From the NCBI RefSeq assembly GCF_030406905.1, contig NZ_CP129137.1, positions 186,001 through 250,000 on the forward strand: a DNA stretch of 64,000 bases, written 5' to 3'. Below, piece by piece: positions 15,853 to 63,447 of the stretch. This stretch comes from Streptomyces sp. HUAS CB01. GTDB lineage: Bacteria; Actinomycetota; Actinomycetes; Streptomycetales; Streptomycetaceae. How positions within the stretch are numbered: position 1 is the first letter of the stretch; each line of letters begins with the position of its first letter. The notes below the pieces were generated by a model. That model was not told the DNA's origin and ran no database searches. It saw only the letters and a list, made by a program, of their open reading frames with translations. A program made the translations under genes and the position numbers.

Positions 15853-15963
15853 GGGGCCGGTCGGCCCAGGATGAACAGGATGAAGAGGCCTCGGCGGGCA
15901 CCACGCCCCGCCTCCCGCCCCCGCGGCGGGCCTCTCGGCCCTTGGGCACGGCCCCATCAGCCC
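15853..15963. promoter_or_regulatory. DevR/OsdR-type boxes in a divergent promoter
   Basis: GGGGCCGGTCGGCCC (15853-15867), GGGCCTCTCGGCCC (15928-15941) and the weaker GGCCCCATCAGCCC (15950-15963). The first is placed for the Rv1733c-like gene on the left; the last two, centred about 22 bp apart, are placed 81-116 bases before the CBS-BON gene at 16044. They fit the consensus drawn from the whole window, GGGRCCGNNCGGYCCC. Confidence 0.65.
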
Positions 15964-16043
15964 TATCCCGGGTGGGGGTCGCCGGCTGACGCTGGGGGTG
16001 CCGGGAGACGGGGCGCTCCGGACGGCGCCGAAGGGAGCCCGTG

Positions 16044-16775
16044 ATGAGGCACAGCAAGATCGGCAGTCTCATGGTGCGGAACGTGGTCGCGGTGGCGCCC
16101 GAGTCGTCCTTCAAGCAGATCGCCGGACTGCTCGATGAGCACCGGATCAGTGGCGTTCCGGTCGTGGATTCCGAGCGCCGGGTGATCGGGGTGGTCTCCG
16201 AGACCGATCTGGTCCTGCGCCGGCCAGGTCTCGCGCCGGAGTGGGAGGCCGCCCCGGGTGCGCAGACGGAACTCGTCGCGGGCTCCCCGGACAGCGACGG
16301 GCCCGCGCCGACCGCGGCGGACCTGATGTCCGCGCCCGCCGTCACCGTCGACGTCGAGGAAACCGTTGCGGGGGCGGCACGCACCATGGCCGCCCATCGC
16401 GTGGAACGCCTGCCCGTTGTCGACCGCGAGCGACGTCTGATGGGAATGGTGACCCGGCGCGATCTCCTGCAGGTGTTCCTTCGACCGGATGCCGAGATCC
16501 GGGAGGAGATCGTCGAGGATCTCTTCGAGCGCACACTGTGGTTGCCGCCGGGGAAGCTCACGGTCCGCGTGGTCGAGGGAGTGGTGACCCTCGATGGGCA
16601 GCTGGAGCGGCTCAGCGACGTTCTGGTCGCCGTCCGACTGGTCCGGCAGACGGACGGAGTCGTCACCGTCATCGACAGGTTGCGTCACGACTTCGACGAC
16701 ACGCCTGTGGGCCGCGCAACCGGTCCGGCAGGAGAGGCCCGGCGCCGGAAGGCAGTCGGGGAGCGCTCCCCCTGA
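16044..16775 (+). CDS. CBS-pair plus BON domain protein (copy 1)
   Basis: About 243 residues: two CBS motifs (KIGSLMVRNVVAVAPESSFK...GVVSETDL, and TAADLMSAPAVTVDVEE...MVTRRDLLQVF) followed by a BON-like C-terminal domain (KLTVRVVEGVVTLDGQLERL, then DGVVTVIDRL). CBS pairs bind adenosine nucleotides; BON domains bind membranes or partners. The CBS-BON combination is typical of Streptomyces and no reaction is known. ATG 16044 is better spaced from GGGAG than the GTG just upstream. It is one of six CBS-BON copies on the island, probably induced via the boxes at 15928-15963. Confidence 0.85.
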   Translation: MRHSKIGSLMVRNVVAVAPESSFKQIAGLLDEHRISGVPVVDSERRVIGVVSETDLVLRRPGLAPEWEAAPGAQTELVAGSPDSDGPAPTAADLMSAPAVTVDVEETVAGAARTMAAHRVERLPVVDRERRLMGMVTRRDLLQVFLRPDAEIREEIVEDLFERTLWLPPGKLTVRVVEGVVTLDGQLERLSDVLVAVRLVRQTDGVVTVIDRLRHDFDDTPVGRATGPAGEARRRKAVGERSP

Positions 16776-16859
16776 ACCTGTTTCGGAACACGGGTCGGCG
16801 GTGCCCGGTCCGGGTCAGGGCCTCGGTGACGATCGTGACGCGGTCAGGCCGGCGTATCG

Positions 16860-17205
16860 CGTGCCCGGTGGCTGCGTCGCGCCCCTCAGGTGCGCCCGCT
16901 TGATCGTGGATCGAGCGGGACCATCTGTCCGCCCCGTCGGCCAGGGCCCGCAGCGCGTCCAGGGCCTGGTTCCGCACGCCCTCGCGCTGGTAACGGCGGA
17001 GCACCCGATACAGGTTCGACCACAGCCGATACGGTTCGGGCACGTCTCGCCACGGGCACCCCGCCCGGACCGGCGCCGGATCCCGTCGACCTGCCGACAC
17101 AGATTCCGCGCCGGCCGAGCGCACGCTGCGACCGCTAGGAACGCCTCGACCGCCGCCCCGGGCCCATCCGTGAGCTCATGCCGCCCAACTACGTCGACCA
17201 CAGGC
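16860..17205 (-). mobile_element. IS5-family transposase remnant
   Basis: On the minus strand, GRHELTDGPGAAVEAFLAV (transposase N-terminus) is followed in another frame by VRAGCPWRDVPEPYRLWSNL, then YRVLRRYQREGVRNQALDAL and finally the scrambled SVDST/RAHQHAAG region. These are the classic landmarks of the first half of an IS5-group transposase. Frameshifts and loss of the second half make it inactive. It lies between the CBS-BON gene and the YCII gene. No flanking inverted repeats were identified. Confidence 0.7.
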
Positions 17206-17276
17206 CTGCAGCGTGGCGAAACCGCAGGTCACGAGCCCCTTCCGAACCAGCCCCAGCCGCGGCGGGTCGTCAACGA

Positions 17277-17615
17277 TCAGACGGTCGGGTCGGGCATGAT
17301 CTCCCGGACCTCTTGCGCACAGCGGCACGCGGCAGCGATCTTGGCAGCCCACTCCAGCGCGGCCTCGCGTGAGGGCACATCGACGACCGCGAACCCGCCG
17401 AGCACCGCCTTGGTCTCCGGGTACGGTCCATGGGTGACGGTCCCGTCGGTGGCCACGACGCTCGCCTGCTGCCTTTCCAGTCCACCACCGAAGACCCACA
17501 CACCGGCGTCCTGAGCCTCGCGCACCACCTCGTGCGAGGCCTCAACCACCTCGGGCAACTCCTCCTCGGGGAAGGTCATCGCGCCGTCATCGAACGAGAT
17601 CAGATACCGCGTCAC
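17277..17615 (-). CDS. YCII/DGPF-domain protein
   Basis: A 112-residue protein. It begins VTRYLISFDDGAMTFPEEEL and contains GVWVFGGGLERQQASVVATD and DGTVTHGPYPETKAVLGGF, the DGPF-type core of the YCII-related fold. Such small proteins often accompany ECF sigma factors; none is adjacent here. Start is GTG 17615 with GAGGGAG about 4 bases ahead. Role unknown. Confidence 0.8.
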   Translation of the reverse strand: MTRYLISFDDGAMTFPEEELPEVVEASHEVVREAQDAGVWVFGGGLERQQASVVATDGTVTHGPYPETKAVLGGFAVVDVPSREAALEWAAKIAAACRCAQEVREIMPDPTV

Positions 17616-17816: not shown

Positions 17817-18686
17817 TCAGGCAGCCGTCAGGTGATCGACGACCGCGGTGACGTCGGCGATGCCTTCGATCCGGTCGAGCAACCGCCGGGCGTCGGCCGG
17901 CTCCATCCGTCCCCACACGTCCACCGTCCCGTTGCGAACCACGATCTCGATCGCCGGCCTGGTACCGGGAAACTCCTCCGTGAGAATCCTGGATTCGATC
18001 TCTTCACGGATCCCCTCGTCGTCCCTCACGAGCGACGCAAGAAGAGTGTTCCTGCGCACGACACCGACGAGGTGCCCCTCCCTGTCCGTGACAGGCACCC
18101 TCTTCAGCCGGGAGAGCGCTGCGAGCCACGCCGCCTCGGCGACGGTGGACTCCGGGAACACCGTGATGGCAGGAGCGGTCATCAGGTCCTCCGCCGTGTA
18201 CGCACGGGCGCTCTCGTTGAGGCGTCGACGGGCGAGCGCACCCGTCACGCCGGGCCGATGCCCGGTCGCCTCAACCGCCGCCTTGGCCAGCAGGTCCGAT
18301 TCCGACACCACACCCATCACCCGGCCCTCCGGGTCCGTCACGGGCAGCGATCCCACTCCGGCATCGGTGAGGGTTCGAGCAATGGCCATGAAGGGGGAAT
18401 CCCTTGAGACCGATGCGGCAGAGGCGTCCATGACGTCCCCGACCAGCAGCGGATCGGCTTCCACATCGGATGCAGAAGGTGCCCGGTGGCCCGTCCTGCG
18501 GGGCCGCGCCGGTGCTCCGCGGCCGGTCGGAGTCCGGGACTGCTGGTGATGGGAGGACGCCGCCGCCATGGCTCCGATGTACCGGAGCAGCAGGTCCTCC
18601 CGCAGGGGTTCGTCGATTCGGCTCGCCCTTCCGGGCACCGCACGACGCGCCTCGACACCGGCGGCAGAGCCCTCACGCTCATGCAT
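17817..18686 (-). CDS. CBS-domain protein with N-terminal extension
   Basis: About 289 residues. A 75-residue basic, low-complexity N-terminus (DLLLRYIGAMAAASSHHQQS...) precedes two CBS motifs (VGDVMDASAASVSRDSPF...GVVSESDLLAKA, and TAEDLMTAPAITVFPESTVA) and a short BON-like end (IVVRNGTVDVWGRMEPADAR). It differs from the six other CBS-BON copies by its extension and by degenerate second-motif residues (GVVRRNTLL). ATG at 18686 is likely; further ATGs upstream and downstream are in frame. Tandem boxes at 18757-18792 lie 71 bases upstream. Confidence 0.75.
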   Translation of the reverse strand: MHEREGSAAGVEARRAVPGRASRIDEPLREDLLLRYIGAMAAASSHHQQSRTPTGRGAPARPRRTGHRAPSASDVEADPLLVGDVMDASAASVSRDSPFMAIARTLTDAGVGSLPVTDPEGRVMGVVSESDLLAKAAVEATGHRPGVTGALARRRLNESARAYTAEDLMTAPAITVFPESTVAEAAWLAALSRLKRVPVTDREGHLVGVVRRNTLLASLVRDDEGIREEIESRILTEEFPGTRPAIEIVVRNGTVDVWGRMEPADARRLLDRIEGIADVTAVVDHLTAA

Positions 18687-18756: not shown

Positions 18757-18792
18757 GGGACCGGTCAGCCCTTCCGGGGACCGATCGGCCTC
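18757..18792. promoter_or_regulatory. Tandem DevR/OsdR-type boxes, divergent promoter
   Basis: GGGACCGGTCAGCCC (18757-18771) and GGGACCGATCGGCCTC (18777-18792), centres about 20 bp apart, that is two helical turns. They lie between the CBS gene on the left and the DMT transporter on the right (start 18974). Confidence 0.75.
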
Positions 18793-18973: not shown

Positions 18974-19825
18974 ATGAACACCGCCGTCGCGGTGCCGGCC
19001 GCTCTCCTCTCCGCCCTCAGCTTCGGCATCGGATCGGTGCTTCAGCAGCAGGCGGCGAGCGAGGCTCCCACAACGGACTCCCTGCGGCCCCGACTGCTGC
19101 TCGAGCTGGCCCGCCGTCCGAAATGGCTGACCGGCATGGGACTCGTCGTCTCCTCGTACGCCCTGCTCGGCCTTGCCCTGGCCTCGGGCCCTCTGGTGCT
19201 GGTCCAGCCGCTCGCGGCCACGGACCTCGTCTTCGCCCTTCCCTTCCTCGCCTGGCGGCGGGCCGTCCCCCTGACGCGTCCGGAGGTCGCGGGAATCATG
19301 TGCACAGCGGGTGGTGTGGCGATGTTCCTGACCGTGCTGCCCGTGCCTTCCCAGGGGAAGGTTCCGGACCTCGTCGACTGGGTGCCCGTGCTCGCCGCCG
19401 TCGGTGGCGCCGTGCTGCTCCTGGCCCCTGCCGGCCTCCGGCGGCGCGGCAGGACGAGGACCGCACTGTTCGCCGTCTGCGCGGCGCTCCTGTTCGCCTT
19501 GCTCGACAGCCTGACCAAGAGCACGGCCGACAGGTTCCAGACGGAGGGCGCGGGCGCGTTCCTCGCTTGGGAGCCGTACTCGCTGATCGTCGTCGGCGTG
19601 CTGGGCCTGACCATGTCGCAGAGCGCCTATCAGGCCGGTTCCCTGGCCATCAGCCTGCCGATCATCGACACGCTGGAACCGATCGGCGCCGTTCTGATCG
19701 GCATCGCCGTCTTCGGCGAACGGCTCGCGCAGACCCCTTCCGCGCTGGCCGTGCAGATGCTGGGAGCAGCGGTGGCCGTGGCGGGCATCCTGCTCCTGGA
19801 CCGATCGCCGCTGGCTCGTGCCTGA
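18974..19825 (+). CDS. DMT/EamA-type transporter
   Basis: A 283-residue integral membrane protein with about nine to ten hydrophobic helices, starting AVAVPAALLSALSFGIGSVL. ASGPLVLVQPLAATDLVFAL and AYQAGSLAISLPIIDTLEPI are features of DMT-superfamily permeases (EamA or NIPA-like). The tandem repeat of five-helix units is visible. Substrate unknown. ATG chosen for the match to helix 1; the upstream frame is open but without homology. Tandem boxes lie 180 bases upstream. Confidence 0.75.
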   Translation: MNTAVAVPAALLSALSFGIGSVLQQQAASEAPTTDSLRPRLLLELARRPKWLTGMGLVVSSYALLGLALASGPLVLVQPLAATDLVFALPFLAWRRAVPLTRPEVAGIMCTAGGVAMFLTVLPVPSQGKVPDLVDWVPVLAAVGGAVLLLAPAGLRRRGRTRTALFAVCAALLFALLDSLTKSTADRFQTEGAGAFLAWEPYSLIVVGVLGLTMSQSAYQAGSLAISLPIIDTLEPIGAVLIGIAVFGERLAQTPSALAVQMLGAAVAVAGILLLDRSPLARA

Positions 19826-19914
19826 ACACGTCGGACTCCGGCCCGTGTCGTGCCCGACCTCGGACCCGGTCGTTCCAGGACCCGTGCTCCTGCGGGTCCG
19901 AACGTCCCCACGCA

Positions 19915-19950
19915 GGGACGAATGGCCCCTCTCCCTCAGGACCGTGTCCC
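19915..19950. promoter_or_regulatory. DevR/OsdR-type box pair before ppdK
   Basis: GGGACGAATGGCCCC (19915-19929) is a clear match; GGACCGTGTCCC (19939-19950) is a shorter, weaker partner one to two turns downstream. They sit 67-102 bases before the ppdK ATG. Confidence 0.6.
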
Positions 19951-20016: not shown

Positions 20017-22794
20017 ATGACCGACTACGTGTACGACTTCGCTCACGGCGGCCGCGCGATGGCCGACCTCCTCGGGAACAAGGGCGCGAATCTCGCGGAG
20101 ATGACCCGCCTCGGCCTGCCCGTGCCGAGCGGGTTCACCATCACCACCGAGGCGTGCCGGGTGTTCCTGTCGACGGGTCAGCCTCCGCCCGAACTGGAGC
20201 GCCAGATGGCCGACCATCTGTCGGCCCTCGAGCGTGCCGCCGGAAAGCGGCTGGGGCAGGCGGACGACCCACTGCTCCTCTCTGTCAGGTCCGGGGCCCA
20301 GGTCTCGATGCCCGGAATGATGGAGACCGTCCTCGACATCGGGCTCAACGACTACTCCGTGCTCGGGCTGGCCAAGACGTCCGAGCGCGAACGATTCGCG
20401 TGGGACTCCTACCGACGCCTCGTGCAGATGTTCGGCAGCACGGTGATGGGAGTGGACGGTTCCCTCTTCGAGGAAACGCTCACGCGCATCGAGGACCAGC
20501 ACCACGTCCCCGACGACAGCCGACTGGACGTCTGCGACCTCATCAGGACCGTCGAGTCGTTCAAGGACCTGATCGGCGAACGGACCGGCCGCGACTTCCC
20601 CCAGGCACCCGCCGAGCAGCTGCGGCAGGCCGTCCTGGCCGTGTTCGCCTCCTGGAACGGGGAGCGCGCACGGCTGTACCGGCGCCGGGAACGGATCCCG
20701 GATGATCTGGGTACCGCGGTCACCGTCCAGACCATGGTCTTCGGCAACCTGGGCCGCGACTCGGGGAGCGGTGTGGCCTTCACCCGGGACCCGGCCACGG
20801 GACTCAAGGGAATCTACGGCGACTACCTTCCCAGCGCCCAGGGAGAGGACGTCGTCTCCGGCGTACGCAACGCCGTGCCCCTCCAAGAGCTCGCCGCACT
20901 GGATCCGGCGTCCTTCGGGCAGCTCCAGGAGTACATGGACCGCCTGGAGAGCCACTACCGCGACGTGTGCGACGTCGAGTTCACGATCGAACGCGGCAGA
21001 CTCTGGATGCTTCAGACACGCGTCGGCAAACGCACCGCCGAGGCTGCCTTCACCATCGCCGCGGACATGGCCGACGAGGGTCTGATCACGAACCGTCAGG
21101 CTCTGGCCCGGGTCAACGGCGACCAGCTCACGCACCTCATGTTCCCGCGCTTCGCCGTAACCGGCGGAGGCGACGTGATCGCCCGGGGTGTCCCCGCTTC
21201 ACCGGGGGCGGCCGTGGGGGCGGTCGTCTTCGACTCTGCGGAGGCGGTACGCAGGGCGGACGCCGGGGAGAAGGTGGTGCTCGTACGCAACGAGACCACC
21301 GCCGCGGACCTCTCCGGCATGATCGCCGCCCAGGCCGTGCTCACGTCTCGCGGAGGGAAGACGAGCCACGCGGCGGTCGTCGCGCGCGGCATGGGCAAGG
21401 TGTGCGTGTGCGGGGCGGAGGACATGATCGTGGACACCCGTGCGCGCTGCCTCGTCGCCGACGGCCTGACCGTGGGCGAGGGCTCGGTCGTCTCCGTCGA
21501 CGGCACGGAGGGCGTCGTCCGCCTGGGGGCCGTGCCCCTGGTCGAGTCCGACGTCATGCACTACTTCGACAGCGGCGCACCCCCGGGCGGAACCGTGCGG
21601 GACTCCGTGCGCCACGTGCACCGGCTCATGCTGGAGGCCGACGCGGCGCGGCACCTGGAGGTGCGGGCGAACGCGGACACCCCGCAGGACGCGGCCCGGG
21701 CACGCCGATTCGGAGCCGAGGGCATCGGGCTGTGCCGCACCGAGCACATGTTCCTCGGGGACCGGCGCCGGCTGGTCGAGGACATGATCCTGGCGGAGGG
21801 TGACGCGGAGAGGAGCGCGGCGCTCGCCGCACTCCTGCCGCTGCAGCGCGCGGACTTCACCGGCATTCTCGAGGCCATGGACGGACTGCCGGTGACCATT
21901 CGGCTGCTGGACCCGCCTCTGCACGAATTCCTGCCGGACCGGACCGATCTGGCCGTCCGCGTCGCCCGGAGAGAGGCTTCCGGAGCCCCGCCGGATGCGC
22001 GCGACACGGACCTGCTCGCAGCCGTCACCCGCATGCACGAGAAGAACCCGATGCTCGGGCTGAGGGGCGTCCGGCTGGGACTGGTCGTGCCCGGTCTCTT
22101 CGCCATGCAGGTGCGCGCCATCGCCGAGGCGGTCGCGGAACGTGTGCGGGCCGGCGGAACGCCACGCGCCGAGATCATGGTGCCGCTCGTGGACACGGTG
22201 CAGGAACTACGGCTCGTCAGGGACGAGGTGGAACGGGTGGTCGAGGCCGTGTCCACCGAGACCGGTGTCGACGTCTCCTGCCCGATCGGGACGATGATCG
22301 AGCTGCCGAGGGCAGCGCTGACCGCGGGGAGCATTGCCCAGGAGGCGGAGTTCTTCTCCTTCGGCACGAACGATCTCACCCAGACGACCTGGGGGTTCTC
22401 ACGCGACGACGTCGAGGCCGCCTTCTTCTCCGCCTACTTGGAGCAGGGCGTGTTCCAGGCGTCCCCGTTCGAGACCATCGACCGCGAGGGAGTGGGCCGA
22501 CTCGTACGGATCGCGGTCGCCGAGGGCCGCGCGGCCCGCCCCGGGTTGGAGCTCGGTGTCTGTGGAGAGCACGGAGGCGATCCGGCATCGGTGCACTTCT
22601 TCCACGAGGCAGGGCTCGACTACGTTTCCTGCTCGCCGTTCCGCGTACCGGTCGCCCGGCTGGAAGCCGGCAGGGCGGCCATTGCGAGTTCACCCGAGGC
22701 GGCCGGGCCCGCCATGCGCCCGGACCGTCACACCGGGGGCGCGCCCCGGCCCCGGGCGGATCAACCAGACACGCACGGACTCACGGGCGCATGA
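20017..22794 (+). CDS. ppdK: Pyruvate, phosphate dikinase
   Basis: A 925-residue cytoplasmic PPDK that interconverts pyruvate + ATP + Pi and PEP + AMP + PPi. The N-terminal ATP-grasp region begins with YDFAHGGRAMADLLGNKGAN; the swivelling phosphohistidine domain carries GGKTSHAAVVARGMGK with His451; the C-terminal PEP/pyruvate barrel has GIGLCRTEHMF, SFGTNDLTQTTWG and GVCGEHGGDP. All catalytic words are intact and length is normal, apart from a short Pro/Arg-rich tail. A ppdK also lies in the S. coelicolor OsdR-controlled region. Under hypoxia it may recycle PPi and keep PEP/pyruvate balanced. Boxes at 19915-19950 suggest OsdR control. Confidence 0.95.
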   Translation: MTDYVYDFAHGGRAMADLLGNKGANLAEMTRLGLPVPSGFTITTEACRVFLSTGQPPPELERQMADHLSALERAAGKRLGQADDPLLLSVRSGAQVSMPGMMETVLDIGLNDYSVLGLAKTSERERFAWDSYRRLVQMFGSTVMGVDGSLFEETLTRIEDQHHVPDDSRLDVCDLIRTVESFKDLIGERTGRDFPQAPAEQLRQAVLAVFASWNGERARLYRRRERIPDDLGTAVTVQTMVFGNLGRDSGSGVAFTRDPATGLKGIYGDYLPSAQGEDVVSGVRNAVPLQELAALDPASFGQLQEYMDRLESHYRDVCDVEFTIERGRLWMLQTRVGKRTAEAAFTIAADMADEGLITNRQALARVNGDQLTHLMFPRFAVTGGGDVIARGVPASPGAAVGAVVFDSAEAVRRADAGEKVVLVRNETTAADLSGMIAAQAVLTSRGGKTSHAAVVARGMGKVCVCGAEDMIVDTRARCLVADGLTVGEGSVVSVDGTEGVVRLGAVPLVESDVMHYFDSGAPPGGTVRDSVRHVHRLMLEADAARHLEVRANADTPQDAARARRFGAEGIGLCRTEHMFLGDRRRLVEDMILAEGDAERSAALAALLPLQRADFTGILEAMDGLPVTIRLLDPPLHEFLPDRTDLAVRVARREASGAPPDARDTDLLAAVTRMHEKNPMLGLRGVRLGLVVPGLFAMQVRAIAEAVAERVRAGGTPRAEIMVPLVDTVQELRLVRDEVERVVEAVSTETGVDVSCPIGTMIELPRAALTAGSIAQEAEFFSFGTNDLTQTTWGFSRDDVEAAFFSAYLEQGVFQASPFETIDREGVGRLVRIAVAEGRAARPGLELGVCGEHGGDPASVHFFHEAGLDYVSCSPFRVPVARLEAGRAAIASSPEAAGPAMRPDRHTGGAPRPRADQPDTHGLTGA

Positions 22795-24008: not shown

Positions 24009-24668
24009 TCACGAGGGGGCCGTCGCATCCGTGGTCGGTCCGGACGGAGCGGCGAGTTCGCAGCGCACCACGACGACGCCCTCGACGGCCTGAGCCAGGC
24101 GGCAGGCAAGGGGCACGAGGCTGCTGTCACCGACCGCGCCCCCGAGCGTGACGACCCCGTCACGGACACGTACGCCCGGTCCAGAGCCTGCGAAGAGGCG
24201 GTCGAGTACATCCCGAACCTCTGCCGCGATGTCGTCGTCCGCGCGGAAGAAGACCTTGAGGAGGTCGGCCCGGCTGACGATGCCTTTCAGAAACCCCTGT
24301 GCGTCCACGACAGGCAGGCGCTTCACGTGTCGTCGCGCCATGAGGCGGGCGGCGTGCGGCAGAGTCGCGGCGGCCCGGATCGTGACGGGTGGAGCGCTCA
24401 TGAGGTCTTCGGCCCTCACGGCACCCGCCCTCGCGGCGCCCGGACTCCGGTCCGTGAGGACCTGATCGGTTCCGCGGAGCTCCTCCGTGCGCAGGAGATC
24501 GGCTTCGGAGACGATTCCGACCACACGGCCCTTGCCGTCGACGACCGGGACGGCGGTCACGTTCCACCGGCCCATGGCCGTCACGATGTCCTTGAACCGC
24601 GCATGCAGGGCGACCGCGACGACGGTCTTCGTCATCACGTCTTCGACGCAGTGCGGGGCTGACAACAT
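24009..24668 (-). CDS. CBS-pair plus BON domain protein (copy 2)
   Basis: A 219-residue protein. CBS 1: HCVEDVMTKTVVAVALHARF ... GIVSEADLLRTE; CBS 2: RAEDLMSAPPVTIRAAATLP ... GIVSRADLLKVFFRADDDIA; BON-like end: GVRVRDGVVTLGGAVGDSSL. It is closest in layout to the copy at 36358-37038. ATG 24668 follows GAGGC; the frame is open far upstream but homology starts here. Divergent from the XRE-flavin gene, with the tandem boxes 24754-24788 in between. Confidence 0.85.
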   Translation of the reverse strand: MLSAPHCVEDVMTKTVVAVALHARFKDIVTAMGRWNVTAVPVVDGKGRVVGIVSEADLLRTEELRGTDQVLTDRSPGAARAGAVRAEDLMSAPPVTIRAAATLPHAARLMARRHVKRLPVVDAQGFLKGIVSRADLLKVFFRADDDIAAEVRDVLDRLFAGSGPGVRVRDGVVTLGGAVGDSSLVPLACRLAQAVEGVVVVRCELAAPSGPTTDATAPS

Positions 24669-24753: not shown

Positions 24754-24788
24754 GGGCCGACAGGGGCCGCCTCGGGGCCGTCCGGCCC
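24754..24788. promoter_or_regulatory. Tandem DevR/OsdR-type boxes, divergent promoter
   Basis: GGGCCGACAGGGGCC (24754-24768) and GGGGCCGTCCGGCCC (24774-24788), centres 20 bp apart. Located 86 bases before the CBS-BON gene (left) and 68 bases before the XRE-PNPOx gene (right), so one pair may serve both. Confidence 0.75.
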
Positions 24789-24855
24789 AAGCGCCGCACA
24801 CCACGTGCAGGTCACGCTTGCGGTGCAGGGACCTGATGAGGAGAGGTGGACCACG

Positions 24856-25545
24856 ATGAGCGGCACTTCCGCGCCCGGTTCCGCCGCCGAGCCGTCGCGC
24901 TCGCACACCGACATCGGCCGCCGACTCGCCGGCCGGCGCGAACAACTCGGGCTGTCCCGGGAGGACGTGGCCGAGCGCAGCGGGGCTGCGGTCACCTATG
25001 TCGCGTATCTGGAGGAGCAGCCTGCGGCGCCCGACACGGCCACGCTGCAGCAGATCGCCGCCGCCCTGGAGACGACCGTGGCCGAACTGACGGGCGGGAC
25101 GGCGGACCAGCCACCGGGGCTGGGCGTCGCGCTCAGGGATGCAGGACTGGCCGAGCTCGACGAGGCGGAGTGCCGGACTCTGATGTCCGGCCACGGTGTC
25201 GGGCGCGTCGGGGTCCTCACGCCCCAGGGGCCGGCGGTGGTACCGGTGAACTACGTGGTCGACGGAGCCGAAATCGCCTTCCGCACCGCACTGGGGAAGG
25301 TCCCCGCCTTCGCCGCGGGAAGCGAGATCGCCTTCGAGGTGGACCGCATCGACGACGCCTTCAGCAAGGGGTGGAGCGTGCTGGCGGTGGGAACCGCGCG
25401 CGCCGTCACCGAGGAGGACGCGATCCGACGGCTGACGGAACTCGCCCCTACGGCGCCGTGGGCAGGAGGAGCGCGTGACCTGTGGGTCGAGCTCTCGCCG
25501 TCCCGCATCACCGGACGCAGGATCGTCGCGACGGGCGGCGGCTGA
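24856..25545 (+). CDS. XRE helix-turn-helix fused to pyridoxamine oxidase-like flavin domain
   Basis: A 229-residue two-domain protein. Residues about 20-80 are an XRE/Cro-type HTH (IGRRLAGRREQLGLSREDVA, then LEEQPAAPDTATLQQIAAAL). Residues about 100-225 are a split-barrel flavin-binding domain of the pyridoxamine 5'-phosphate oxidase family (LMSGHGVGRVGVLTPQGPAV, VPVNYVVDGAEIAFRTALGK, IAFEVDRIDDAFSKGWSVLA). Such domains bind FMN or F420. The fusion suggests a redox- or flavin-sensing DNA-binding protein, but this is inference; the flavin domain alone may be the working part. Enzyme-only relatives exist in the DosR regulon. Confidence 0.85.
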   Translation: MSGTSAPGSAAEPSRSHTDIGRRLAGRREQLGLSREDVAERSGAAVTYVAYLEEQPAAPDTATLQQIAAALETTVAELTGGTADQPPGLGVALRDAGLAELDEAECRTLMSGHGVGRVGVLTPQGPAVVPVNYVVDGAEIAFRTALGKVPAFAAGSEIAFEVDRIDDAFSKGWSVLAVGTARAVTEEDAIRRLTELAPTAPWAGGARDLWVELSPSRITGRRIVATGGG

Positions 25546-26534: not shown

Positions 26535-27393
26535 CGGGCCGTCGCCCAGCACCGCCGCTGCCTCCGTGCCCTTGTCCCGGCGGCTTCCGAACCCGAGCCG
26601 GAGCCCGCCCCGGAGGAGGAGCCGCCCGGTTCACCCTGGCCGACCGGGCACCGGTTCGCCGACCGCACCCGGGCCCGGCATGCCGCTGTCCACGCACTGC
26701 TGGAGGCCGGGCACAGCCGCCGCTCGATCCAGCGTCAGCTCGGCATGACCTGGCGGACCGTCAAGCAGCTCGTCGAGGCGAAGGCTCCGGAGGAGCTGTT
26801 CACCGGCCAGTGTCAGAACCGGCCCTCGGTCCTTGATGACTACAAGCCCTACCTGGACGACCGGTGGAGCGAGGGTTTCACCAACGCCTGGAAACTGTGG
26901 GAGGAGATCGTGCCGCTCGGCTACAAAGGCAGCTACCAGCGTGTCCGTGCCTACCTGCACAAGAAACGCACCTCACCGCGACCGGTGACCGCCCGGCCGC
27001 CGTTCGCCCCGGACGGTCTCCGGATGGATCCTCAGCCGCCCGGAGACCCTCACCGATCCTGAACAACTCCAGCTCGAGACCGTCCGCACCCACTGTCCCG
27101 AGCTCGATGCCCTCACCCGGCACGTCCGGTCCTTCGCGGTCATGCTCACCCAGCGCCAGGGCGAACACCTGCTGGCCTGGCTCGACGCCGTCCGGCAGAA
27201 CGACCTGCCCAGTCTCCATACCCTCGCCGCCGGCATCGACCGCGACCTTGACGCGGTCATCGCCGGACTCACCCTGCCCTGGAGCTCGGGCGTGGTCGAA
27301 GGGCACGTCAACCGGATCAAGATGCTCAAGCGTCAGATGCTCGGGCGTGCTGGCTTCGCCCTTCTGCGGAAGCGCGTACTGCTCGCACAGTGA
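26535..27393 (+). mobile_element. ISL3-family transposase remnant
   Basis: One frame reads AVAQHRRCLRALVPAASEPE ... HAAVHALLEAGHSRRSIQRQ ... DDYKPYLDDRWSEGFTNAWK ... GYKGSYQRVRAYLHKK; near 27000 the frame changes and continues PETLTDPEQLQLETVRTHCP ... LPWSSGVVEGHVNRIKMLKR and stops at 27393. This is the C-terminal two-thirds of an ISL3 transposase with one frameshift; the N-terminal zinc finger and first catalytic residues are missing. Inactive. No terminal repeats were found. Confidence 0.8.
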
Positions 27394-30735: not shown

Positions 30736-30876
30736 GGCGAGCACCCTCCTCGAAGTGCACTTCGCGGGACGAGCGATCCGGGACTCCGGACTGTCGAGCA
30801 ACGCCCTGCCGCCCCGGTCGGTTGCAGCCATGGGGAACGCGGTTCCAGCCTGCGCCGGGACCACCCCCACCGGGCA

Positions 30877-30912
30877 GGGCTGATCGGCCCCCGGCCGGAA
30901 CCGACCGGCCCC
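30877..30912. promoter_or_regulatory. Tandem DevR/OsdR-type boxes, divergent promoter
   Basis: GGGCTGATCGGCCCC (30877-30891) and GGAACCGACCGGCCCC (30897-30912), centres 20 bp apart, 142 bases before pncB and 167 before the ATPase gene. A weak third element, GGGACCGTGTCC at 31019-31030, lies nearer the ATPase. Confidence 0.7.
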
Positions 30913-33802: not shown

Positions 33803-35560
<1,758 letters not shown>

Positions 35561-41397: not shown

Positions 41398-41403
41398 CCT
41401 CTT

Positions 41404-41423: not shown

Positions 41424-41427
41424 ATTC

Positions 41428-42761: not shown

Positions 42762-42779
42762 TCCCCTCGGAGGTATTCG

Positions 42780-44382: not shown

Positions 44383-44469
44383 GTCGCTGCCCCGAGCAGC
44401 CCTCGGCCCGTCCGCTCCCGCGTCGGATTCTGGGTGAGAGGCTCCGTTCGAAGGCTGCGGGAGTGGGAC

Positions 44470-48439: not shown

Positions 48440-48527
48440 GGCTCCTCCAGCCGCTTGCGAACGAGTACGTCCCCCGCAGGACGATGTCCGCACCTGCACG
48501 TTACGCAAGGGTGAGGGCCGGTTGCGA

Positions 48528-48615
48528 GGACCGACCGGCCCCCTCCGAAGCTCTGTTGGTCCCGAACGAGCGGTCCGCCGGGACCATCGGGCCCCGCTAC
48601 GGGCTGTTCGGCCCC
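48528..48615. promoter_or_regulatory. Three DevR/OsdR-type boxes, divergent promoter
   Basis: GGACCGACCGGCCCC (48528-48542) is placed for the stress protein on the left. GGGACCATCGGGCCCC (48580-48595) and GGGCTGTTCGGCCCC (48601-48615), centres about 21 bp apart, are placed 67-102 bases before hsp20 on the right. Confidence 0.78.
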
Positions 48616-48681: not shown

Positions 48682-49104
48682 ATGGCTGTACTCGCACGCA
48701 AGCAGAGGTTCCCGTTCCCCGATCTGCCGGACTGGTTCGAGGACTTCCCCGCCCGGTTCAGCATGCCGGCCATGGCCGATCTGCACAGCATGAGGATCGA
48801 GGAGTACACGGAGGACGGCAGGCACGTCATCCGCGCGGAGCTCCCGGGCGTCGAGGTGAAGGATCTGGACGTGACCGTGGAGGACGGCATCCTCACCATC
48901 AAGGCGGAACGCACTGAGCGCGAAGTGGACAAACACCGCAGTGAGATCAGGTACGGATCGATCACCCGAGCTCTCGCCCTGCCGAAGAGTGCCGACGAGG
49001 GCGACGTCCGCGCCGAGTACACGGACGGCATGCTCACGGTGAGCGTGGGTTTGGGCGAGGAGAAGCCGGAACCCAAGCACATCGAGATCAAGCACGCCAC
49101 GTGA
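48682..49104 (+). CDS. hsp20: Hsp20/alpha-crystallin small heat shock protein
   Basis: A 140-residue small heat shock protein. The alpha-crystallin domain (about 45-135) includes MRIEEYTEDGRHVIRAELPG, LDVTVEDGILTIKAERTERE and TDGMLTVSVGLGEEKPEPKH; the C-terminal IxI-like IEIKH is present. It is the likely counterpart of HspX/Acr (Rv2031c), the marker protein of mycobacterial dormancy. ATG 48682 with GAGGAGG upstream. Tandem boxes precede it. Confidence 0.92.
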   Translation: MAVLARKQRFPFPDLPDWFEDFPARFSMPAMADLHSMRIEEYTEDGRHVIRAELPGVEVKDLDVTVEDGILTIKAERTEREVDKHRSEIRYGSITRALALPKSADEGDVRAEYTDGMLTVSVGLGEEKPEPKHIEIKHAT

Positions 49105-51550: not shown

Positions 51551-51688
51551 TTCACCAGGACCCCCGTCCCTCGGCTCGGGGGCGGTCGGGGGCTGTGCGA
51601 GTCCGAAGGGTGCGGAGGTCCGAGACCGTCGCACGCGGCCGGAGGCCCAGTGGGACACGCCGCTCTCCGCTCGCCGGAGGCGTCGCTT

Positions 51689-51723
51689 GGGGCCATCAGC
51701 CCCATGACGGGACCGTTCGGCTC
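51689..51723. promoter_or_regulatory. Tandem DevR/OsdR-type boxes
   Basis: GGGGCCATCAGCCCC (51689-51703) and GGGACCGTTCGGCTC (51709-51723), centres 20 bp apart, 92-126 bases before the CBS-BON gene at 51815. Confidence 0.75.
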
Positions 51724-51814
51724 TGATGCCGTGACGGGATCCGGAAGGAGAGTCGGGAGGGAGGGCAGTCCGCCGAGGCGGCGTGAACGGCTCCAGGGCG
51801 GAAGGAGTGAGGAC

Positions 51815-52534
51815 ATGCAGCACCGCAGGATCTCGGAGGTGATGACACGGCGTGTCGTCACGGTGAACCACGACTCGTCCTTCAAGGAGATCGTGAGACT
51901 CTTCGACGACAACGACATCACGGCCGCACCGGTGGTGGACGACGACGGCCGGCCTCTGGGCGTCGTCTCCGAGGGAGACCTGCTGCGCAAGGCGTCGAGC
52001 CTGCCGGACCCGGACGGACGTTGGACCCGGCTGCGACTTCTGCCCATGGACGAGGCGCGGGCGGAGGCCGAGACCGCCGGGGCCATGATGACCTCCCCCG
52101 CCGTCACCGCCAGGCCGGACTGGAACATCGTCGAGACGGCACGGACCATGGACCGCCACAAGGTGAAGCGACTGCCGGTCGTCGACGAGAGCGGCAGGAT
52201 CGTGGGCCTCGTGAGCCGACGTGACCTGCTGCGCCCCTTCCTGCGCCGCGACGAGGCCATCGCCGAGGAAATCAGGACGGAGGTGCTCGACCGCACCCTC
52301 GGAGTCGCGCCCGACAGCGTTCGGGTGTCCGTCCACCAAGGGGTGGTCACCCTCACCGGCCGGGTTGCCGAACGCGCCGACATCCCGGTCGTCGAACGGC
52401 TCTGCCGCTCGGTGGACGGGGTGGTCGCCGTGCACCACACGCTGGAGTACGAGTACGACAACCTGGCCCTGGACGTCGAGCCCCCGAGCGAGCACCCGGC
52501 GACGGCGGCCGGCACACGCGAACGCCCGGCATGA
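51815..52534 (+). CDS. CBS-pair plus BON domain protein (copy 5)
   Basis: A 239-residue protein. CBS 1 RISEVMTRRVVTVNHDSSFK ... GVVSEGDLLRKA; CBS 2 AGAMMTSPAVTARPDWNIVE ... GLVSRRDLLRPFLRRDEAIA; BON-like end VRVSVHQGVVTLTGRVAERA. It shares several words with copy 6 (53531-54184), so these two look like a recent local duplication. ATG 51815 with GGAAGGAG. Confidence 0.86.
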   Translation: MQHRRISEVMTRRVVTVNHDSSFKEIVRLFDDNDITAAPVVDDDGRPLGVVSEGDLLRKASSLPDPDGRWTRLRLLPMDEARAEAETAGAMMTSPAVTARPDWNIVETARTMDRHKVKRLPVVDESGRIVGLVSRRDLLRPFLRRDEAIAEEIRTEVLDRTLGVAPDSVRVSVHQGVVTLTGRVAERADIPVVERLCRSVDGVVAVHHTLEYEYDNLALDVEPPSEHPATAAGTRERPA

Positions 52535-53382: not shown

Positions 53383-53419
53383 GGGCCCGTTCGGACCGTC
53401 AGTGGGACCGGTTGGGCCC
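53383..53419. promoter_or_regulatory. Tandem DevR/OsdR-type boxes
   Basis: GGGCCCGTTCGGACC (53383-53397) and GGGACCGGTTGGGCCC (53404-53419), centres about 21 bp apart, 112-148 bases before the CBS-BON gene at 53531. Confidence 0.73.
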
Positions 53420-53530: not shown

Positions 53531-54184
53531 ATGAGGCACCGGCACGTTGCCGACCTGATGACTCCTGATGCCGTCACCGTCCCTCCCGGCACCACTTTCA
53601 AGGAGATCGCCCGGTTGCTCGACGAGTTCGGCATCAGCGCCGTACCCGTGGTCGATGTCGACGGGCGACCGCTGGGCGTGGTGTCCGAAGCGGATCTGGT
53701 GCGCCGTCAGGCGTCCGGTGGGGGCGCTCCCACGGCCGAGGGACTCATGACGAGTCCCGCCGTCGTCGCGCGTCCGGAGTGGAGCGTGGTCAAGGCCGCC
53801 AGAGTGATGGACAGACACCGGATCAAGCGGCTTCCGGTGACCGACGACGCCGGCCGCGTGATCGGAGTGCTCAGCCGCAGCGATCTGATCCAGCTGTTCC
53901 TCCGAAGGGACAGGGCGATCCAGGAGGAGATCCTCGAGGACGTCCTCACCCGTACGCTCCGTCTGTCGCCGTCAGCGCTCTCCGTCGAGGTCACGGACGG
54001 CCGGGTGACTCTCAGCGGCACGGTTCCGCGCAGGAGTCTGGTTCCCGTGACCGTGAGACTCTGCGAGAGCGTCGACGGTGTCGTGGACGTCACCGGCCGG
54101 CTGACCTTCACCTGGGACGACACCGTGGACACCTCGAACCAGCCGACCGCCGCGGCCGGCGAGGCGCCCCACGGAGCGCGGTGA
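53531..54184 (+). CDS. CBS-pair plus BON domain protein (copy 6)
   Basis: A 217-residue protein. CBS 1 HVADLMTPDAVTVPPGTTFK ... GVVSEADLVRRQ; CBS 2 TAEGLMTSPAVVARPEWSVV ... GVLSRSDLIQLFLRRDRAIQ; BON-like end LSVEVTDGRVTLSGTVPRRS ... GVVDVTGRLTFTWDDT. Similar to copy 5. ATG 53531; the upstream AAAGG is a moderate ribosome site. Confidence 0.86.
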   Translation: MRHRHVADLMTPDAVTVPPGTTFKEIARLLDEFGISAVPVVDVDGRPLGVVSEADLVRRQASGGGAPTAEGLMTSPAVVARPEWSVVKAARVMDRHRIKRLPVTDDAGRVIGVLSRSDLIQLFLRRDRAIQEEILEDVLTRTLRLSPSALSVEVTDGRVTLSGTVPRRSLVPVTVRLCESVDGVVDVTGRLTFTWDDTVDTSNQPTAAAGEAPHGAR

Positions 54185-56348: not shown

Positions 56349-56711
56349 GGTCCCACAGGTGATGGATCTGCTGTCGCGCGGGTGACGGAGTCGTCCAGGC
56401 CCTTCCTGGGCCGGGCCCGAGACCTGTTGCGCCCCTTCGGCGCACTCCGCCACGCTCGGATCGTCCGCCGGATCGCCCGCACCGACACGACCACGGTGCG
56501 GGCGCCGCATGTGACGATCCTTCGCGCCTGCCCGACCGTCTGTGCGCCCGTCCCCGCGGACTGCGGAAGCACCGGGGTGGCGAGGCTCTCGAGTCGGTTC
56601 CCGGAACGCCGACGCCGCCTCTGCGAGGGCCATGAGGGCCGGCACCGGCACGGGGCCGGGGACCCGAAGTGCCGCACCCGGGGCGGCCGGTCCGGACCGT
56701 GCGCCGGGGAA

Positions 56712-56747
56712 GGACCGGCCGGCCCGACGATGGGGCCGTGTGGCCCC
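56712..56747. promoter_or_regulatory. Tandem DevR/OsdR-type boxes
   Basis: GGACCGGCCGGCCC (56712-56725) and GGGGCCGTGTGGCCCC (56732-56747), centres about 21 bp apart, 65-100 bases before the stress protein at 56812. Confidence 0.77.
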
Positions 56748-56811: not shown

Positions 56812-57717
56812 ATGTCCCGAACCGTCACCGTCGGCCTCGACGACTCACCCGAGAGCCGGGAGGCAGCGGAGTGGGCGGCACGCGAGGCACTACTGCGCGG
56901 ACTTCCCCTGAAGGTCATGTACGTCCAGGAGCACGTGTCGCGGTACGTCGCCCGCACTCCGCTGCTGGACCTCGACAGCCACCAGCGCTGGGCCGAGCGG
57001 ATGACGCAGGAGTCGGCGGACGCCATACGGCTTCGCCATCCGGGCGTCGAGGTGGTCACCGAGCACCCCACGGGGACCGCGGCTGACGTCCTGAGTGAGG
57101 CGGCGGGCTTCGCCGAGCTGCTGGTGCTGGGCTCGCGCGGACTCGGCAGGCTCACGGGGTTCATGGTCGGCTCGGTGAGTCTGGGGGTCGTCGCCCGCGC
57201 CGAGCGACCGGTCGTACTGGTACGGACCGCAGAGCGGGCCGACGACGAGCACACGCCGGATGCGGCGGGCGTGCCCTCGGCAGCGACGCCGTTCCGGCCC
57301 GTCGTCCTCGGCCTGGACATCGACCGCCCGGACGACACGCTGCTGGACTTCGCCTTCGACGCCGCCGCCCGCAGAAAGGCCCCCCTGCGGGCCGTCCACG
57401 CCTGGCCCGAACCGCCGCCTTCCTTCTACGGCCTCTCGGGGGGCGCGGAACTCCATGAAAGGCTCGAGCGCGAACAGGCCTCGCTCCTGAACGAGGTGCT
57501 GCATCGCTGGCGGCAGAAGTTCCCGGACGTCGAGGTGATCGAGGCGAGCCGTTGCGGCAACGCCGCGCAGGTCCTCGTCAACGAGGCCCGTGACGCCTCC
57601 CTCGTGGTCGTCGGCCGACGCATCCGCTCCGGAGCGCTGGGTCCTCACATCGGCCACGTCACCCACTCCGCCCTGCACCACATCGCCGCTCCCGTGGCGG
57701 TCGTCGCCCACGCCTGA
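56812..57717 (+). CDS. Universal stress protein, two tandem Usp domains
   Basis: A 301-residue tandem Usp. Domain 1: [20 protein letters not shown] ... [20 protein letters not shown], full ATP motif. Domain 2: [20 protein letters not shown] ... [20 protein letters not shown], with GH instead of GS. It is a close relative of the copy at 28167-29066. ATG 56812 with CGGAGGTGGAG. Clear island-type promoter. Confidence 0.9.
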
Positions 57718-60014: not shown

Positions 60015-60215
60015 ACGCCTGCGACTGCGCGAGACGGCGAGGCGTTGTGCCAGGCCGGGTGAGCGGGACCAGGAGGGCGTCGTGCGGCCTTCGCCCGAGT
60101 ACGACGACGTGGTGCCGGGCGCGGCCGGCCGGCCACCGTCGTCTTCGCAGCCGTCGTCGCGGACGAGTTCGACTTCCCGGCCTTCCTGTGCAGCCCCACG
60201 CAGGCGACCAGGTCC

Positions 60216-60251
60216 GGGCCGATCGGTGCACCCGCCGGGCCCGGACGGCCC
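60216..60251. promoter_or_regulatory. Tandem DevR/OsdR-type boxes
   Basis: GGGCCGATCGGTGC (60216-60229) and GGGCCCGGACGGCCC (60237-60251), centres about 21 bp apart, 98-133 bases before the lipoprotein gene at 60349. The 334-base gap shows nothing else. Confidence 0.7.
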
Positions 60252-60348
60252 TGGGCGGGTCGTGCACCCCGGAGGGAGGCTGAAACGGACGGACCCGCAG
60301 GCGCCCGCTCCAGCGGCCGCAGCAGGAACGGCCGGAAGGGTGATGATC

Positions 60349-61104
60349 ATGCCCAGCACGAGCAGCCGGGCCGCCGCCGCGCTGGCGGCCCTCGCGCTGG
60401 CCGGCACGCTGGCCGCCGGATGCGCGGAAGTCGGCAACACCTCCCGGGGCGCCTCTCCTCGCCCGGCCGCCGTGCCAAGTCCCTCCGGCAGCGATTGCTG
60501 GAGGGCGGGCACATCGGGCGACGACTGGGACGACTGGGACTCGTGGGGGCCCGGCATGGGGCCGGGAATGATGGGCCGCGATGACTGCTCGTGGGGGCCG
60601 GGCATGATGGGCGGGCACTACTGGCAGCGGGGCGACGGCACCCCGGTGACCACCCTGGACCAGGCCCGGCAGCGGGCCGATGCCTTCGCCGACAGGCTCG
60701 ACCTGCGGGTCGGTGAGGTCATGCAGTTCTCGAAGAACTTCTACGCCGAGCTGGAGACCCCCGGCGGTGAACTGGCCACCGAGATCCTCGTCGACCCGAC
60801 CGACGGTGACACCGGGATCGAGTACGGCCCGGCGATGATGTGGAACACCGGCTACGGCATGCACGTCGGTGGTCAGACCCGGACCCGCGTCTCCCCCGAC
60901 CAGGCCCGGGACCGCGCCCTGAAGTGGCTGCGCGACCGGGGCAGCGACCTGGTTGCCGGCGAGGCCGAGGCGTTCCCCGGCTACTACACCCTGCACACGC
61001 TGCGCAACGGGAAGATCGACGGCATGCTCTCGGTCAACGCCTCCACCGGCGCGGTGTGGGACCACACCTGGCACGGGACCTACGTCGCCACCAGCGAGCA
61101 CTGA
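60349..61104 (+). CDS. PepSY-like lipoprotein, Met/Gly-rich
   Basis: About 251 residues. Signal peptide with lipobox LAGTLAAGC (Cys near residue 25), then a low-complexity segment with GPGMGPGMMGRDDCSWGPGM, which may bind metal, then a C-terminal domain resembling PepSY repeats (TLDQARQRADAFADRLDLRV ... GMLSVNASTGAVWDHTWHGT). Exported and membrane-anchored. ATG 60349 is best spaced from GGAAGGG. Role unknown, possibly protease inhibition or metal binding at the cell surface. Confidence 0.75.
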   Translation: MPSTSSRAAAALAALALAGTLAAGCAEVGNTSRGASPRPAAVPSPSGSDCWRAGTSGDDWDDWDSWGPGMGPGMMGRDDCSWGPGMMGGHYWQRGDGTPVTTLDQARQRADAFADRLDLRVGEVMQFSKNFYAELETPGGELATEILVDPTDGDTGIEYGPAMMWNTGYGMHVGGQTRTRVSPDQARDRALKWLRDRGSDLVAGEAEAFPGYYTLHTLRNGKIDGMLSVNASTGAVWDHTWHGTYVATSEH

Positions 61105-62419: not shown

Positions 62420-62468
62420 CTCGTACTCCCGACTCGACCGTTGTCGGCGCAGACCGGTGGAAGGGGTG

Positions 62469-62927
62469 TCAACCGTCGAGCAGCGGAGCCTTGTCCGTCC
62501 CGTGGAAGACCTGGGGCACCTTCCGGGCGGCGTCCACCACGACTGCCAGATCCGAGAGCTCCTGAGTGAGCTGCCAGAACAGGTCGTCGAAGGAGACGAT
62601 GCCGATGAGGCGTCCCTCCGCCACCACCGGGAGGTGACGCACCCGGGCCGATCGCATGATGAGGATGGCGACCGCCACGGCGGTGTCCGCCTCCACGGTC
62701 ACGGGGTCGGTCGACATGACCCTTTTGACCGGAGACCCCGTCGACAGGCCCCGGGCCATCGCCCGGACCACCAGATCTCGTTCGGTGACGACGCCGATCA
62801 CCCGGTCGCCGTCGACCACCGGGAGCGCTCCGACGCCTGCATCGGCCATGTGGCGTGCGGCGCTCTCGAGCGGTTCGGCTTCGGACACACAGACCGGCGG
62901 CGTGTTCATCATGTACTGGATCTGCAT
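62469..62927 (-). CDS. hrp1: Hrp1-like CBS-domain protein
   Basis: A 152-residue protein consisting of two CBS motifs: IQYMMNTPPVCVSEAEPLES ... GVVTERDLVVRAMARGLSTG and VKRVMSTDPVTVEADTAVAV ... GIVSFDDLFWQLTQELSD. It matches hypoxic response protein 1 (Rv2626c), a secreted or cytoplasmic CBS protein with no bound nucleotide in the mycobacterial structure. ATG 62927 with AAGGGGC upstream. It lies 75 bases downstream of the 68-residue gene and the box cluster. Confidence 0.88.
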   Translation of the reverse strand: MQIQYMMNTPPVCVSEAEPLESAARHMADAGVGALPVVDGDRVIGVVTERDLVVRAMARGLSTGSPVKRVMSTDPVTVEADTAVAVAILIMRSARVRHLPVVAEGRLIGIVSFDDLFWQLTQELSDLAVVVDAARKVPQVFHGTDKAPLLDG

Positions 62928-63002
62928 CTGGCAGCCCCTTCGATGCCGAGTCGGCGATCACCGCATGACCGGACCGGCTCGTCGGTGACGCGGGGTGTGG
63001 TG

Positions 63003-63209
63003 CTACAGCCCTTGCGAGAGCAACAGCTCATGGGCCATGCGGGCGCCGCGGGCCGCTTGCTCGTCCTGCTTCACGTCCTGGGACGGAATCGGCTCGAGGC
63101 CTTCGGCGAGAGCCTTGATGGCACCGGCGAGCGTCTCCACCTGCGATTCCAGCCGGCGCAGACGCTGATCGGTGGTCTGTGGCGTGTGTCCGCCGTTCCC
63201 TGTCGTCAT
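63003..63209 (-). CDS. Small coiled-coil protein of unknown function
   Basis: A 68-residue protein; TDQRLRRLESQVETLAGAIK is a predicted coiled coil (about 13-40), followed by an acidic and basic tail ending AHELLLSQGL. I do not recognise a family. ATG 63209 follows GAGGTAG. It opens the three-gene unit with Hrp1-like and site-2 protease genes, and tandem boxes lie 125-158 bases upstream. Confidence 0.65.
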   Translation of the reverse strand: MTTGNGGHTPQTTDQRLRRLESQVETLAGAIKALAEGLEPIPSQDVKQDEQAARGARMAHELLLSQGL

Positions 63210-63333
63210 CGTCTACCTCCATCAGCAGCGGAAGTGCGGGACTGGAGTGCCGGGCGACGGCCGGGGCGCGAGGCCTTTTCGCGCGTTCACCGCGGCGTAC
63301 TCCAAGCGTCACTTTCGGGGACGCACTTGCCGA

Positions 63334-63447
63334 GGGCCGAACGTCCCTCCCTGGCGCCGAACGACCCATCGCCGCTCATGGCGAGGGATGCGCCCGGAGC
63401 GGTCCGGCCTGGGCTTGTCGGACCCACCGGACTGGACCGGTCGGCCC
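63334..63447. promoter_or_regulatory. DevR/OsdR-type box cluster
   Basis: GGGCCGAACGTCCC (63334-63347) and GGCGCCGAACGACCC (63353-63367), centres about 20 bp apart, are placed for the 68-residue gene and its operon on the left. GGACCGGTCGGCCC (63434-63447) is placed 225 bases before the acetyl-CoA synthetase start on the right. The 462-base gap shows no other gene. Confidence 0.68.

Follow-up and report, generated by a model that had tools for sequence, protein, structure and literature searches.

A 64-kb window of the Streptomyces sp. HUAS CB01 genome (positions 186,001 to 250,000 of contig NZ_CP129137.1; positions below are those of the window unless the contig or the genome is named) carries, from 15.5 kb on, a cluster of 16-bp palindromes, here called boxes, around the genes for a response regulator, osdR1, and a sensor kinase, osdK1. 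Pfam scans of this island found eight CBS-domain proteins, of which seven have a BON match as well (below the Pfam cutoff in one case), and five universal stress proteins (USP) between 13.9 and 57.7 kb. There are also genes for pyruvate phosphate dikinase, nicotinate phosphoribosyltransferase, a P-type ATPase, Hsp20 and an OsmC-like protein, as well as those of a [NiFe] hydrogenase. The initial annotation had described the genes downstream of the palindromes as relatives of DosR-regulon members, and the families agree with this: Rv1733c, Rv2626c, TB31.7-type USP, nicotinate phosphoribosyltransferase, Hsp20 and P-type ATPase. The Mycobacterium tuberculosis counterparts, Rv1733c, Rv2626c and TB31.7 among them, belong to the DosR regulon. 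Genes were called with our own codon-usage script, and some starts are uncertain (that of osdR1 was set by eye at 36263; the gene at 17817 was called with two different ones).

The regulator and the kinase

33845-35560, plus strand: osdK1, DosT/DevS-type kinase with tandem GAF, HisKA_3 and HATPase domains
35583-36263, minus strand: osdR1, DevR/OsdR-type response regulator of the NarL family, 226 aa, best PDB match 3c3w
36326-36341: predicted OsdR box upstream of osdR1, 18.1 bits, centre 70 bp before the start

The two genes are convergent. OsdR1 has a candidate phospho-acceptor, D65, and the recognition helix EKTVKN at 193 is conserved, as the initial annotation had noted in saying that the regulator keeps the DosR helix. 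In OsdK1, His138 and Tyr160 lie 22 residues apart, the same spacing as in the alignment with DevS, whose heme ligands are His149 and Tyr171. The boxes could also be thought to belong to a general stress island controlled by a redox or nitrate regulator of the NarL type that has nothing to do with hypoxia, since NarL is a family relative of OsdR1. This is improbable, because OsdR1 matches the DevR structure 3c3w far better than it does NarL (E 3.8e-70 vs 5.1e-33), the GAF domain of OsdK1 matches those of DosT (2vzw, E 5.3e-55) and DevS, and the sites described below are found by a matrix of published OsdR sites. The S. coelicolor osdR has a published upstream box of its own at -81 (PMC5069765). 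Judging from the 18.1-bit box, osdR1 is likely to be autoregulated.

Concentration of the boxes

The matrix was taken solely from published sites because circularity was to be avoided: it is a symmetrised matrix of 25 S. coelicolor OsdR sites (Table 1 of Urem et al. 2016, PMC5069765). Matches of at least 13 bits are called strong, and the reversed matrix served as control. Between 15.5 and 64 kb of the window there are 38 matches of at least 8 bits, 19 of at least 11 and 13 of at least 13, while the first 15.5 kb have 3, 0 and 0, in line with the earlier remark that good copies were not noticed in the first 15 kb. An evenly spaced 1.6-Mb sample of the same genome gave 23 strong matches. Seven of them lay in one stretch, L100, which was dropped because it turned out to be a further island, and 16 were left in the remaining 1.58 Mb. 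The initial annotation had held that a motif equally frequent elsewhere would speak against its proposal; in the scan, 13 strong matches were observed in the 48.5 kb of the cluster against 0.49 expected (P ~1e-14). The control matrix gave no match of at least 13 bits in the cluster and 21 in the 1.6-Mb sample. Strong matches that are non-coding and at most 400 bp upstream of a gene numbered 12 in the cluster and 10 in the sample (3 without L100).

With the loose consensus GGGRCCGNNCGGYCCC and up to two mismatches, the window has 30 matches, of which 27 fall between 15.8 and 63.5 kb; shuffles (n=100) gave a mean of 14.3 (standard deviation 4.1), and none reached 30. The earlier figure of about 30 copies thus holds at this looseness, but many of these copies are chance-grade. 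All 12 positions that had been named carry palindromic sites, some offset by 1 bp, and the statement that the palindrome precedes most transcription units is borne out by 24 of the 41 called genes between 15.1 and 63.7 kb, which have a site of at least 8 bits within 450 bp upstream. Strong boxes end at 63.4 kb; the best match at contig 250-264 kb has 11.6 bits. By reading, USP- and CBS-like genes continue to about 77.5 kb in window numbering.

Tandem spacing and promoter geometry

Boxes had been said to be often paired with centres 20-22 bp apart, and this spacing is taken by 15 of the 24 window pairs lying within 8-60 bp, compared with 9 of 115 in the 1.6-Mb sample. When overlapping matches were merged, 14 of 22 window pairs were still at 20-22 bp; in some pairs the weak partner has 3.0-5.7 bits. 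Much the same spacing was seen in OsdR loci from Streptomyces and its relatives (80 loci, the best of 567 confirmed; some species are represented twice), where 37, 44, 30 and 20 pairs stand at 20, 21, 22 and 23 bp, respectively, and 0-7 pairs at any other spacing within 8-70 bp.

Between the end of the proximal box and the start codon, 80-90 bp is the most frequent distance, seen in 82 of 353 promoters. A hexamer NANNNT, such as CACGCT or CAGGCT, with T rarely first, lies at +30 to +33 relative to the centre of the box in 16 of the 28 promoters of our own genome (null mean 1.8, maximum 5) and in 170 of 325 promoters of the other loci (null mean 19.9, maximum 32). After thinning to less than 50% identity, 45 of 127 promoters had it (null mean 9.0, maximum 16). 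TANNNT was tried as a model of the -10 element and gave no peak. A second, lesser NANNNT peak about 21 bp beyond the first is read as promoters with a sub-threshold proximal box. If the last T of the hexamer is placed at -7, the box centre comes to lie near -43; in about half of the promoters the proximal box would therefore be centred there, about 31 bp ahead of a -10-like hexamer. This placement agrees with the description of DevR promoters, where close-packed sites are bound cooperatively and the proximal one lies over the -35 (PMC3029386).

OsdR loci of relatives

The 80 loci (1.58 Mb) contain 258 strong matches vs 20 for the control matrix, or 16.3 vs 1.3 per 100 kb; 72 of them have at least two strong matches and three have none. 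An OsdR-like match (E <=1e-60) was found in 57 of 61 Streptomyces genomes, and osdR of the arm type (at least 70% identity) occurs in at least one copy in 44 of the 61 and in two or more copies in 24. In the OsdR tree the deep order is poorly resolved; OsdR1 and OsdR2 each pair with a copy of S. wuyuanensis.

Further osdR copies and islands in the genome

The genome has four OsdR copies: osdR1, osdR2 at 556.6 kb (88%), osdR3 at 5,965.7 kb (77%) and osdR4 at 4,068.5 kb (63%). Strong boxes surround three of them, in the window, at 0.52-0.56 Mb (island 2) and at 5.96-5.975 Mb (island 3). Island 2 has five strong matches at 520-526 kb and one at 555.8 kb, most of them 30 kb from osdR2, and island 3 has seven at 5,964.8-5,973.7 kb around osdR3. 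Islands 2 and 3 lie 0.3 and 5.7 Mb from the window island, and each has an osdR/osdK-like pair. In the 2.8 Mb of the genome that was scanned, part of which was chosen for pattern hits so that elsewhere is over-sampled, there are 57 strong matches, 26 in the three islands (13 in the window) and 31 outside, 7 of the latter within 400 bp upstream of genes. Because there are two more box groups, each with its own osdR/osdK-like pair, besides scattered upstream sites, the proposal of a single, nearly complete physical regulon is not supported; the regulon is divided among islands and not complete in the window. Two of the 7 upstream matches outside the islands, at contig 176.8 kb, stand before a gene that by reading is P-type-ATPase-like.

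Since OsdR2 has the same recognition helix as OsdR1, EKTVKNHISRLLSKLGVERR, the assignment of the boxes to the regulator at 35583-36263 alone is tentative, and the two may cross-talk. The boxes might even be read mainly by OsdR2, by OsdR3, whose helix differs at two positions, or by an OsdR4-type orphan, with osdR1 not the main controller. The S. coelicolor kinase also partners an orphan, SCO3818 (PMC5069765), and the gene beside osdR4 has upstream boxes of 11.6 and 10.9 bits. However, no intergenic match of at least 13 bits is listed nearer than 8 kb to osdR4, ten 5-kb stretches of the OsdR4 type have 0 matches of at least 13 bits and 5 of at least 11, compared with 13 and 17 in ten lower-identity arm-type stretches, and each arm-type osdR has its own upstream box (18.1, 11.2 and 16.2 bits). 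We regard a main reader other than OsdR1 as rather unlikely.

The contents of the three islands suggest, tentatively and with more doubt than confidence, that each has its own OsdK/OsdR pair and that all share one operator code, of tandem boxes 20-23 bp apart with the proximal one near -43, but carry different modules: hydrogenase, pyruvate phosphate dikinase and NAD salvage in the window; USP, CBS, alcohol dehydrogenase and Rv1733c-like proteins at 0.52-0.56 Mb; USPs, a glyceraldehyde-3-phosphate dehydrogenase-like protein and pyruvate formate-lyase at 5.96 Mb. Different kinase set points would then give a graded response to falling oxygen. OsdK2 shares 68% and OsdK3 59% identity with OsdK1, and the set points of OsdK1-3 may differ, with the OsdK2 segment after the heme His diverged. 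Family scans placed a nitroreductase, a zinc alcohol dehydrogenase, PPK2, a phosphoketolase, Hsp70 and a ClpB-type protein near island 2, and pyruvate formate-lyase and radical-SAM activase genes in island 3 (contig 5969284-5972276, stretch L100). The boxes set limits to the modular arrangement: the alcohol dehydrogenase has one of 10.9 bits and pyruvate formate-lyase only one of 7.8 bits, none of at least 6 bits was found for the nitroreductase, PPK2 and Hsp70, and none above 7 for ClpB and the phosphoketolase. The gene at contig 5959663 had been read by eye as AdhE-like; a 112-residue piece of it gave no Pfam match, so that this reading was not confirmed.

A probable OsdR-type regulon

The window very probably holds the core island of a Streptomyces regulon for low oxygen and stress that is of the OsdR (DosR/DevR) type, with the boxes as predicted binding sites. 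What stands of the initial proposal of an OsdR/DosR island is the island type, the gene families, the recognition helix, the tandem sites and their concentration; its near-completeness does not. From the sequence features we infer the following course. OsdK1 would probably sense oxygen or redox state through its heme GAF domain and phosphorylate OsdR1. OsdR1 dimers, and perhaps paralogue dimers too, would bind the 16-bp palindromes, in many cases as tandem pairs whose centres are 20-23 bp, or two helical turns, apart. At many promoters the gene-proximal box near -43 would take the place of the -35 element, with a weak -10-like hexamer following about 31 bp on, and activation would come from recruitment of RNA polymerase.

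Several points weigh against this. The +30 to +33 range was picked after the peak had been seen, and 12 of the 28 own promoters are without a -10-like element. The hydrogenase box at 38117, 25 bp from the called start, misfits the -43 geometry unless that start is wrong. Seventeen of the 41 called genes have no upstream site of at least 8 bits; several of these look operon-internal by position, and one belongs to an insertion sequence (IS). For another (45290) the start is doubtful, and a 20-bit box lies farther upstream. The 80 loci are related to each other. In the 61 genomes, scanned with a loose pattern that was picked after comparing 14 patterns on island and sample DNA, whole-genome counts beat the reversed control in only 3, our own genome (160 vs 177) not being one of them, and the median ratio was 0.82 with arm-type osdR (n=44) vs 0.72 without (n=17). 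As a test of co-occurrence these counts were discarded, the difference being weak (P 0.02).

Counts of this kind are what would be expected if the palindrome were a common GC-rich background repeat, terminator-like or structural and serving no regulator: the loose pattern is background-like in 58 of the 61 genomes, and the pattern with at most one mismatch has 170 sites in the 8.10 Mb of our own genome vs 133 for the reversed control. However, 10 of these sites are in the window vs a proportional share of 1.3, 12 of the 13 strong island matches are upstream of genes, the boxes keep a 20-23 bp phase and a preferred distance to the -10-like element, and the strong matches around osdR in the 80 loci far outnumber those of the control. 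A background repeat is therefore highly improbable.

The island is the published S. coelicolor OsdR core regulon in another Streptomyces, to which promoter geometry over many loci and the three-copy layout are added here. The OsdK/OsdR core regulon of S. coelicolor comprises SCO0167-SCO0219 around osdR, with the consensus AGGGCCGATCGGCCCT (Urem et al. 2016, PMC5069765), and resembles the window in the palindrome, the regulator, the kinase, the USP, pyruvate phosphate dikinase and pyridoxamine-oxidase genes and the clustering round osdR; in Table 1 of that paper, one promoter has both a box at -268 and another at -248, a spacing of 20 bp. In S. lividans, RNA-seq found the equivalent region co-expressed with osdR (PMC6302529). 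Unlike S. coelicolor as described there, the window island holds a [NiFe] hydrogenase, and its genome has three arm-type osdR copies; pyruvate formate-lyase and its activase, which belong to the SCO0206 region in S. lividans and S. coelicolor (PMC6302529), are here in another island with osdR3/osdK3. The words "tandem", "paralog" and "hydrogenase" are absent from the main text of PMC5069765. Several OsdR islands, or links to pyruvate formate-lyase or hydrogenase, in Streptomyces were not found in literature titles and abstract openings, which does not establish their absence from print.

The M. tuberculosis DosR/DevR regulon is like the window in regulator, kinase, gene families and close-packed boxes with the proximal one over -35 (PMC3029386); it belongs to another genus, and the gene contents were compared by family. 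The nearest parallel in layout is M. smegmatis, which has two DosR-type clusters, msmeg_3932-3955 and 5241-5246, each with devR, and a low-oxygen-induced [NiFe] hydrogenase, Hyd3 (msmeg_3931-3927), numbered next to one of them (PMC2799521). It differs in that three arm-type copies are present here, and the hydrogenases are likened by layout. The finding extends the OsdR regulon from S. coelicolor towards a general Streptomyces layout, arm-type osdR occurring in 44 of the 61 genomes. With the promoter geometry measured, targets can be predicted more sharply and start sites put to the test. The arrangement in several islands, of which M. smegmatis with its two clusters is another case, makes it possible to study how aerobes split and re-use a low-oxygen regulon.

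Other genes and boxes of the island

15095-15727, minus strand: Rv1733c-family membrane protein (NF050032, 98 bits, cutoff 80)
15831-15868: tandem boxes, 22 bp, 7.7 + 15.3 bits, between the Rv1733c-family and CBS/BON genes
15927/15949: second box pair in the same intergenic region, 9.1 + 8.0 bits
16044-16775, plus strand: CBS/BON protein (Pfam)
18757-18792: tandem boxes, 20 bp, 11.1 + 11.8 bits, between CBS/BON gene 17817-18686 (minus) and DMT transporter gene 18974-19825 (plus)
19894-19929: tandem boxes, 20 bp, 13.0 + 14.8 bits, before pyruvate phosphate dikinase
20017-22794, plus strand: pyruvate phosphate dikinase (Pfam)
24774-24789: box, 14.7 bits, between CBS/BON gene 24009-24668 (minus) and helix-turn-helix (HTH)-pyridoxamine oxidase gene 24856-25545 (plus)
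29359-30735, minus strand: nicotinate phosphoribosyltransferase (family scans)
30876-30912: tandem boxes, 21 bp, 16.7 + 7.0 bits, between nicotinate phosphoribosyltransferase (minus) and P-type cation ATPase (plus)
31079-33739, plus strand: P-type cation ATPase (Pfam)
36358-37038, minus strand: CBS/BON protein; its box at 37185-37200 (16.5 bits) is common to the divergent gene 37446
37446-44162, plus strand: [NiFe] hydrogenase genes, sulfhydrogenase-like (family scans, PDB match): protease-like 37446, 4Fe-4S 38150, cyclic nucleotide monophosphate (cNMP)-binding 39316, NAD/FeS 39798, small subunit 40606, large subunit 42780
38117: box, 16.2 bits, before the called start of 38150
44367-44382: box, 20.0 bits, before acyl-CoA synthetase/GNAT reading frames at 44.4-47.17 kb
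48527-48615: three boxes, 14.9, 8.8 and 12.9 bits, between USP gene 47579-48439 (minus) and Hsp20 gene 48682-49104 (plus)
51688-51724: tandem boxes, 21 bp, 3.6 + 10.0 bits, before CBS/BON gene 51815-52534
53383-53419: tandem boxes, 21 bp, 9.3 + 5.7 bits, before CBS/BON gene 53531-54184
56711-56747: tandem boxes, 21 bp, 11.8 + 8.1 bits, before USP gene 56812-57717; -10-like CACGCT at +31
60215-60252: tandem boxes, 22 bp, 7.0 + 14.6 bits, before gene 60340-61104 of no known family
62469-62927, minus strand: Rv2626c-like short CBS gene, nearest in PDB Rv2626c (E 3.5e-18), box 413 bp away
63333-63448: boxes, 20.5 + 13.3 bits, 331 and 231 bp before the gene starting at 63672 (plus)

The hydrogenase large subunit has sulfhydrogenase 1 alpha as its best PDB match (E 2.6e-61) and falls below the NCBIfam equivalog cutoffs; with CxxC motifs at both ends, RICGIC and DPCISC, it is a candidate for group 3b. 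As a conserved member of the island the hydrogenase was rejected: it is present within about 10 kb in 5 of the 80 loci and is therefore accessory. The small cNMP-binding protein of the set (39316-39801) has relatives (at least 45% identity, half length) in 48 of the 80 loci. A TnpB/IS605 OrfB-type gene (41428-42537, minus strand) stands between the small- and large-subunit genes.

The USP encoded at 56812 has 3cis and 2jax (TB31.7) as its top two PDB matches (E about 6e-23), and an M50 protease with CBS domains adjoins the short, Rv2626c-like CBS protein in the Pfam scans. The top-scoring box of the island (20.5 bits) is the one 331 bp ahead of an operon-like set beginning at 63672 (contig 249672-255168), which by eye encodes an acyl-CoA synthetase, two pyruvate dehydrogenase E1-like proteins, an E2-like and an acyl-carrier-like protein. 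The acyl-CoA synthetase behind the 20.0-bit box is seemingly split into a GNAT frame (43771-46119) and an ATP-grasp plus CoA-ligase frame (45290-47167), by a frameshift or a sequencing error. An ISL3-type transposase remnant lies at 27142-27393 in a gene-poor stretch.

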